Notes under the pieces: generated by a model
Told to the model about the DNA's origin: nothing
What the model saw: only the letters and a program-made list of their open reading frames with translations
Database searches by the model: none
Shown: positions 5,165 through 10,540 of the stretch, piece after piece
How the letters are laid out: each line of letters starts with the position of its first letter
Position numbering within the stretch: position 1 is the first letter of the stretch
NCBI GenBank assembly: GCA_026417115.1
Contig: JAOADW010000034.1
Span: 1 to 64,000, forward strand
Direction of reading: 5' to 3'
Length of the DNA stretch: 64,000 bases
DNA from: Rhodocyclaceae bacterium
GTDB taxonomy: Bacteria; Pseudomonadota; Gammaproteobacteria; Burkholderiales; Rhodocyclaceae
Program-made: the position numbers and the translations under genes

Positions 5165-7390
<2,226 letters not shown>

Positions 7391-7416: not shown

Positions 7417-7453
7417 ATTGATCTTTTATTTTGTTTGAATTGTTCGAAACTAT
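7417..7453 (-). promoter_or_regulatory. Degenerate OxyR-like operator upstream of katG
   Basis: Minus strand ATAG-N7-CAAT-N7-AAAT-N7-CAAT, 12/16 to ATAG-N7-CTAT-N7-ATAG-N7-CTAT with exact spacing. Confidence 0.45.
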
Positions 7454-7521: not shown

Positions 7522-8523
7522 TCACTTGCCGAAGGGCTGTGGCCTGGGTGTCTTGTCAGAAGACGGGGGCAAGATGGGCAAGGTGAATCTGGGTTGTTCG
7601 CCGGTCAGAGTTTTCAAGAAAGCCACGATCTGGGCGTTTTCCTTCTCGGTGAATTTGCGACCCAGTTGCAATCTCCCCATGATGTCGACGGCTTCTTTGA
7701 GCGTCCATACGGCGCCGTCATGGAAATAGGGATAAGTCAGCTCCACGTTACGCAAAGTGGGTACCTTGAAGCTGAAGCGATCGGCATCTTTGCCGGTCAC
7801 CGCTACACGGCCTTCCGCTGGGCTCTTCGCTTTATAGGGTTCGACGATGCCCATCTTCTGGAAAGAAGTGCCGCCGAGGTTTTCACCGTTGTGGCAAGCC
7901 ACACAGCCGCTTTCCTTGAAGAGTTTCCAGCCGGCGAGTTCATCTGCCGTCAGCGCATCCTTTTTGCCGAGCAGCCATTGATCGAACCGCGAGTTGGGAG
8001 TGACCAGCGTTTTTTCGAATTCGGCGATCGCGGTCGTGACTTGGTCGATGTCGATCTTGTCTTTCCCGAACACCATCTTGAATTCGCGCACGTATTCTGG
8101 GATGGTTTCGAGCACATGGACCGCGAGCTCATGGGTGAATGCCATCTCGCCCGGGTTCGCGATCGGGCCGCCGGCCTGAGCCTTGAGGTCGGGGGCCCGC
8201 CCATCCCAAAACTGCGCCACGTTGAGGCTCGAATTGAGCACGGTGGGGGCATTGATCGGCCCTTGCTGCCAATTGTGGCCGATCGAAGTCGGCAGGTTAT
8301 CGGCGCCGCCCATCGACAAGTTGTGACAGGAATTACAGGAAATGAAGCCGGATTTCGATAGGCGAGGATCGAAATACAGCTTCTTGCCGAGTTCGGCCAT
8401 GCCGAGATTGATCGATTTTGGTGGCTGTATGGGCTTGACCAGTTCTTCGGCCGCGAAAGTCGGTGCGCCGATGGCGCCGATCAGGGTCATGGAAATGGCC
8501 AGGGTACGCAATTTCACTTTCAT
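7522..8523 (-). CDS. ccp: Di-haem cytochrome c peroxidase
   Basis: Two CxxCH motifs (CNSCH, CVACH), signal peptide, MauG/Ccp family architecture. Confidence 0.93.
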   Translation of the reverse strand: MKVKLRTLAISMTLIGAIGAPTFAAEELVKPIQPPKSINLGMAELGKKLYFDPRLSKSGFISCNSCHNLSMGGADNLPTSIGHNWQQGPINAPTVLNSSLNVAQFWDGRAPDLKAQAGGPIANPGEMAFTHELAVHVLETIPEYVREFKMVFGKDKIDIDQVTTAIAEFEKTLVTPNSRFDQWLLGKKDALTADELAGWKLFKESGCVACHNGENLGGTSFQKMGIVEPYKAKSPAEGRVAVTGKDADRFSFKVPTLRNVELTYPYFHDGAVWTLKEAVDIMGRLQLGRKFTEKENAQIVAFLKTLTGEQPRFTLPILPPSSDKTPRPQPFGK

Positions 8524-8592
8524 GAGGGTCCTCCTTCCAAGGTGAAAAAACTTGTCGCAGCCGGAAAGATACCCTTACAATGAATGGGGATG

Positions 8593-8606
8593 TTGACATA
8601 AGTCAA
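8593..8606. promoter_or_regulatory. FNR/CRP-family-like dyad upstream of ccp
   Basis: TTGAC-ATAA-GTCAA, perfect 5-4-5 inverted repeat. Confidence 0.5.
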
Positions 8607-8616
8607 TGATTTTATT

Positions 8617-8653
8617 ATAGTTTTTGACTATTCGCCGTATAGTCCCCCGCTAT
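8617..8653 (+). promoter_or_regulatory. OxyR operator in the ccp-oxyR divergent region
   Basis: ATAG-tttttga-CTAT-tcgccgt-ATAG-tcccccg-CTAT: four perfect tetramers with exact 7-nt spacing. Confidence 0.85.
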
Positions 8654-8657
8654 AGCC

Positions 8658-9563
8658 ATGAAACTTTCTGCCCTCCGCTATCTCGTCGCCTTCGCCGACG
8701 AAGGCTCCATGATCCGCGCCGCCGAACGTTGCCAGGTGAGCCAGCCAACCCTCTCGGTCGCCCTGCAAAATCTCGAGCACGAGCTCGGGGTGGCGCTCTT
8801 CGAACGCCAGAAGGGACACGTGGCGCTGACCGATCTTGGCTGGCAAATCGTGGCTCAGGCACGCAAGACGCTCGATGAGGCGCGGCGCATCGAACTCGTT
8901 GCCCAGCAAGGCAAGAACCCCTTGGCCGGCGTTTTCCGCCTCGGCGTCATCCACACCATCGGTCCTTACCTGTTGCCCGAACTGATCGCCGCCTTGAAAC
9001 AGACAGCCCCAGAACTCCGCTTGTTCGTCGAGGAAAGCATGACCGCGTTATTGGCGGACGCTCTGAAATACGGCACGATCGACGCCGCCCTCATCGCCCT
9101 GCCTTTCGACATTGCGGGCATCCGCATACATCCTCTCTATGACGAGCCTTTCGAAGTGATCGTCCCACGCGGCCATCCGTGGGGCCAGCGCAAGGCCATT
9201 TCTGCGCGTGAGATCAAAGGCGAACACGTGCTGGTTCTGAAGGCGGGCAACTGTTTTCGCGAGCAAGTCCTCGATGCCTGCCCGGAGATCAGCCATGCCG
9301 AAGGCTCCACGCACGAAGGACATTCGATCGAAACCGTGCGCGCCATGGTGGCCTCTGGTTATGGCGTCTCCGTGCTGCCGGCAAGCGCGCTTTCTGGCGT
9401 TTTCCGCAATGATTGGATCGTCGCAATTCCCTTCGAAGAGCCAGCACCCTCCCGCCGTGTCGCGCTCGCCTGGCGTCAAGGCTATACCCGTCCACAAGCG
9501 ATCGAAGCGATCATCGAGGCCGTGCGTCGCATCGACAATCCTGCCTACCGGCCTGTCTTATGA
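8658..9563 (+). CDS. oxyR: LysR-family hydrogen-peroxide regulator OxyR
   Basis: N-term LysR HTH; GNCFREQVLDAC matches the OxyR redox cysteine pair (C-x8-C). Confidence 0.92.
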   Translation: MKLSALRYLVAFADEGSMIRAAERCQVSQPTLSVALQNLEHELGVALFERQKGHVALTDLGWQIVAQARKTLDEARRIELVAQQGKNPLAGVFRLGVIHTIGPYLLPELIAALKQTAPELRLFVEESMTALLADALKYGTIDAALIALPFDIAGIRIHPLYDEPFEVIVPRGHPWGQRKAISAREIKGEHVLVLKAGNCFREQVLDACPEISHAEGSTHEGHSIETVRAMVASGYGVSVLPASALSGVFRNDWIVAIPFEEPAPSRRVALAWRQGYTRPQAIEAIIEAVRRIDNPAYRPVL

Positions 9564-10379: not shown

Positions 10380-10400
10380 GGTCGCACCCCTTGAAAAAAA

Positions 10401-10435
10401 GAGAATGATTCTCATTCTATATGAGAATCATTCTC
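10401..10435. promoter_or_regulatory. Fur-box-like element
   Basis: GAGAATGATTCTCAT-tctat-ATGAGAATCATTCTC perfect 15-bp inverted repeat containing two 6-1-6 GAGAAT-N-ATTCTC units. Confidence 0.8.
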
Positions 10436-10540
10436 GATTGCAAGCGACTCCCCAGTATAGTCAGGCTTTATGACAGAAATCGAGAAGATTCACTGGCGCT
10501 TTCCCTAAGCGCTCCCTAGACTGCTAGCGTGGAGGTCAAA

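Follow-up and report, generated by a model that had tools for sequence, protein, structure and literature searches.

The locus considered here raises the question of whether a single OxyR operator, placed immediately before the oxyR start codon, may control both oxyR and the peroxidase gene ccp that is divergent from it. The locus lies in a stretch of 64,000 nucleotides of a Rhodocyclaceae contig, hereafter the window. Its genes are as follows.

5165–7345, minus strand: katG, catalase-peroxidase of 726 aa, scoring above the curated cut-off; it comes after ccp and starts at ATG 7345.
7522–8523, minus strand: ccp, di-haem cytochrome c peroxidase of 333 aa (PF03150, 3e-58), with a strong Shine-Dalgarno box and ATG at 8523.
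8658–9563, plus strand: oxyR, LysR-family regulator of 301 aa with Cys199 and Cys208.

The plus-strand protein is OxyR by sequence, and its activation by H2O2 is predicted. It consists of the LysR helix-turn-helix domain (PF00126) and the LysR substrate-binding domain (PF03466). The redox pair Cys199/Cys208 lies within GNCFREQVLDAC and was aligned to OxyR structures; the best solved relatives are OxyR proteins, the closest of them aligned over residues 1–291. The best model for the product is the NCBIfam OxyR equivalog, at 233 bits, below the cut-off of 329, which probably reflects a divergent branch of OxyR. The translation of ccp contains the CCP_MauG domain and two CxxCH haem sites, CNSCH and CVACH. 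A second OxyR paralogue, 48% identical and with the same cysteine pair, is encoded at L058:2173-3081 (G000:C34). No operator was found upstream of this paralogue, the best candidate having nine mismatches.

The feature from which the analysis starts is the following.

8617–8653, no strand assigned: predicted OxyR operator ATAG-N7-CTAT-N7-ATAG-N7-CTAT, matching at 16/16 positions.

It reads ATAG TTTTTGA CTAT TCGCCGT ATAG TCCCCCG CTAT. The first-pass annotation had reported a four-for-four OxyR motif here, and indeed all four tetramers are exact, with N7 spacing throughout. The reported distance of four nucleotides to the oxyR ATG (8658) is also correct, the gap being 8654–8657, as is the likeness to the E. 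coli OxyR consensus, which has the same layout of four ATAG/CTAT tetramers spaced by seven (PMC5720770). The site is the sole match with 0–2 mismatches in the 2.27-Mb assembly, and a reversed control pattern gave no match with 0–2 mismatches in the same whole-assembly search. Dinucleotide shuffles yield an expectation of 0.01 matches with at most three mismatches per window; base composition predicts about 1e-6 exact matches per window and about 5e-5 per genome.

Conservation was considered in 34 orthologous upstream regions, the window included, from Rhodocyclaceae, Comamonadaceae and relatives. The main clade comprises 29 of them, and its OxyRs group together with full support (100/100). The operator matches at 16/16 positions in 12 of the 34 regions. 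Within the main clade, the second tetramer is exact in 26/29 regions and the third and fourth in 28/29 each, with mean information of 1.76–1.95 bits, compared with 0.31 bits in spacer 2 and 0.47 bits in spacer 3. The first tetramer is weaker (exact in 11/29 regions, mean 0.84 bits) and is lost in the Rhodoferax group; spacer 1 is T-rich and itself partly conserved (1.05 bits). The preservation of tetramers 2–4 against a background of drift in spacers 2 and 3 shows that the operator is under selection. Chance origin is ruled out by the shuffles, the genome-wide uniqueness, the base composition and the conservation in orthologues. Thus the exact operator is a real feature, to which OxyR is predicted to bind. 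It is well conserved and mostly of a known kind, and its novelty is modest.

Weaker OxyR-like sites were found as well, one of them in the window.

7417–7453, no strand assigned: OxyR-like site upstream of katG, 12/16 positions, the sole four-mismatch site and the second-best match in the window.

Two tandem sites with 13/16 matches each lie upstream of a gene pair that we take, from our reading of the translations, to be ahpC-ahpF (L003 / G000:C32:15295-15376). These next-best sites, at ahpC and katG, fall where an OxyR regulon would have them. Two more three-mismatch sites, in contigs C9 and C61, resemble chance matches, being located at or within unrelated genes. The weaker katG and ahpC sites and the second OxyR paralogue were absent from the first-pass annotation, as were a sigma-70 promoter and an FNR-type box, described below.

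The region between the operator and ccp contains two candidate elements.

8593–8606, no strand assigned: FNR/ANR-type box TTGAC-ATAA-GTCAA, matching 8/10 positions of TTGAT-N4-ATCAA; a putative FNR-binding site.
8566–8571, minus strand: candidate ccp -10 box TATCTT, with a predicted start near 8558; the block lies at a constant distance from the FNR-type box.

The box sits inside a nearly invariant stretch, TGAYNTAAGTCAATGATT (profile over 26 regions), which is unique in the genome at up to two mismatches. In relatives, the distance from the box to the TATCTT block is constant and the DNA between them varies. If ccp transcription starts at 8558, the box would be centred at about -41.5, which is the class II activator position. 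The match rises to 9–10/10 in some relatives, and the left half is weaker in Comamonadaceae. A gene for FNR is present in the genome (236.8 bits vs the curated cut-off of 228), and the N-terminal cysteines of its product are in place.

It is unlikely that TGAYNTAAGTCAATGATT is instead the site of another factor, such as a DNR-like Crp/Fnr protein or IHF, or simply two -35 boxes set back to back (TTGACA on the plus strand, TTGACT on the minus strand). Conservation does run beyond the FNR-type palindrome into TGATT (8595–8611, within the same stretch), the minus-strand AATCATTGACTTA is one mismatch away from the IHF consensus, and the genome carries further Crp/Fnr proteins. However, these readings are opposed by the constant distance between the box, centred at about -41.5, and the ccp -10 block, by the equivalent position in outgroups, which holds FNR boxes that are perfect or nearly so (e.g. 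TTGATGTAAATCAA in L014), by the presence of FNR in the genome, and by the control of E. coli ccp by FNR. As for back-to-back -35 boxes, Rhodoferax relatives retain the stretch although its left half there, ATGA, makes a poor -35. Separately, an inverted repeat CTTGC-N8/9-GCAAG surrounds the ccp -10 box and start in several relatives (L036, L010, L042, L043) and is imperfect in the window.

On the other strand, two candidate oxyR promoters were identified.

8593–8621, plus strand: candidate oxyR promoter TTGACA-N17-TATAGT, -35 at 8593–8598, -10 at 8616–8621, 11/12 consensus matches.
8552–8581, plus strand: weaker second candidate TTGTCG-N18-TACAAT, 9/12 consensus matches.

The former is the best sigma-70 match of the region, nearly identical to the consensus, and its -35 box is overlapped by the FNR-type box. 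From it, oxyR transcription would start near 8627, and hence the operator would cover positions from roughly -10 to +27 of oxyR. Such a position, over the -10 box and the start point, fits autorepression. With either candidate, bound OxyR would obstruct transcription of oxyR. One group of relatives carries an 8-bp insertion that moves the FNR-type box further from the operator; the oxyR -10 box there must presumably differ, and joint action of FNR and OxyR would not be tied to one helical phase.

The best reading of these sequences is a compact divergent version of the FNR plus OxyR logic of E. coli ccp, run by the ccp-paired copy of oxyR. We consider it likely that one operator serves both divergent genes, with FNR supplying an oxygen input; the binding, the direction of the effects, the transcription starts and the identity of the acting paralogue are what we infer. 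OxyR at 8617–8653 would cover the oxyR -10 box and start point and hold down its own transcription, and OxyR oxidised by peroxide would activate ccp from the same operator, which lies upstream of the predicted ccp promoter. Under anaerobic conditions FNR at 8593–8606, centred at about -41.5, would serve as an activator of ccp; on a box overlapping the oxyR -35 it could also restrain oxyR. Production of the peroxidase would then peak at low oxygen in the presence of peroxide. The locus probably works as a switch with both a peroxide and a low-oxygen input, as in E. coli, and is unusually tightly packed. Counted against it are the two positions by which the box departs from the FNR consensus, the weaker left half in Comamonadaceae, the 8-bp difference in the distance from box to operator in one group of relatives and the loss of tetramer 1 in the Rhodoferax group.

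In E. coli the divergent partner of oxyR is the small RNA oxyS, whereas here it is ccp, and the operator ends four nucleotides before the ATG. In that species OxyR acts as repressor of oxyR and as activator of yhjA, that is ccp (PMC4207228), and an OxyR site at the oxyR promoter is common to the E. coli autorepression and to this locus, where repression is predicted. The first-pass annotation had suggested autorepression with possible activation of ccp; both fit the promoter anatomy, the conserved divergent order and this E. coli precedent, and both effects are predictions. Both FNR and OxyR control the E. coli yhjA promoter (Partridge 2007, cited in PMC10301912). The two systems share a cytochrome c peroxidase gene preceded by FNR-type and OxyR sites, with the same logic of low oxygen plus peroxide, and differ in that here a copy of oxyR is divergent from ccp with an operator common to both, and the FNR-type box shares positions with the oxyR -35. 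OxyR induces E. coli ccp under hypoxia, and H2O2 can thereby be used as a respiratory oxidant (PMC8115020). Another parallel is OxyR2-Prx2 of Vibrio vulnificus (PMC8115020), where a second OxyR also serves a peroxidase gene beside the main OxyR; however, the peroxidase there is a peroxiredoxin and here a di-haem cytochrome c peroxidase, and this locus has an FNR-type box in addition. A limited literature search, which is no proof of absence, returned no divergent oxyR-ccp arrangement in Betaproteobacteria.

Another possibility, to which we give a low probability, is that the operator is purely an autorepression site, OxyR repressing oxyR only and ccp being left to FNR or another Crp/Fnr protein alone. 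The position of the operator over the oxyR -10 box and start agrees with this, as do the centre of the operator, which falls at about -77 relative to the predicted ccp start and is separated from it by the FNR-type box, and the 8-bp variation in the distance from box to operator between groups. On the other hand, ccp is the divergent partner at all tested clade loci long enough to tell (L051 is too short, and L059–L061 fall outside the test), ccp of E. coli is an OxyR target, and an alternative ccp promoter candidate read directly from the sequence, TTGACT-N18-CATTGT, would shift the operator centre to about -65.

The position of the operator also bears on the translation of oxyR. Judged by its orthologues, ATG 8658 is the correct start. 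A downstream start, raised in the first-pass annotation, is excluded by the N-terminus MKLSALRYLV, which is conserved across orthologues and whose Met1 lines up with that of P. aeruginosa OxyR. An upstream start was rejected, as the frame, followed upstream from the ATG, closes with a TAG at 8640 before any other start codon appears. There is no Shine-Dalgarno box before this ATG: the duplex energy with the anti-Shine-Dalgarno sequence is +0.8 kcal/mol, compared with -10.0 kcal/mol at the ccp start and a median of -2.7 kcal/mol for random 20-mers of the window. The gap of four nucleotides recurs in G080, a genome of the same genus, most other relatives have 9–20 nucleotides, and outgroups have 25–69 nucleotides, mostly with a clear Shine-Dalgarno box. 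Thus the earlier remark that no room is left for such a box holds for this genus, but not as the full cause: most relatives with 9–20 nucleotides also have no strong box, so crowding alone is insufficient to explain its absence. Several relatives with short gaps have weak to moderate purine stretches before oxyR. On this comparison, the Shine-Dalgarno box is reduced across the clade, and the space for one is missing only in this genus. A leader hairpin as a substitute was rejected, the predicted structures being weak (raw energies of -5.3 and -8.4 kcal/mol). It is very improbable that the box is missing due to a nearly leaderless transcript starting inside the operator, with the second TATAGT (8638–8643) as its -10 and a leader of about 6–8 nucleotides, as there is no -35 at the proper distance, where the sequence is TTATAG by direct reading, the upstream promoter is far better, and most relatives have 9–20 nucleotides past the operator.

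More tentatively, and on balance doubtfully, the locus may be an integrated switch, where FNR and the ccp-paired OxyR are at once competitors and partners within about 60 bp between oxyR and ccp. FNR would shut oxyR off and turn ccp on, the operator would take the place of the oxyR ribosome-binding site in this genus, with translation proceeding without a Shine-Dalgarno box, and the invariant TGATT would belong to a further factor, possibly IHF.

In E. coli, OxyR and FNR are known to be paired in the control of cytochrome c peroxidase, and the locus suggests that this pairing also occurs in Betaproteobacteria, with a ccp-paired oxyR. If true, this would support a role of the peroxidase in respiration on peroxide at oxic/anoxic boundaries. 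The locus also offers a natural operator that is exact at 16/16 positions and, at the level of the genus, an example of an operator in the place of the Shine-Dalgarno box. Finally, a separate intergenic region of the window, between a reverse-strand ORF and a gene resembling ZIP-type metal transporters, contains repeats similar to Fur boxes (GAATGATTCTCATTCTATATGAGAATCATTCTC) at 10396–10440.
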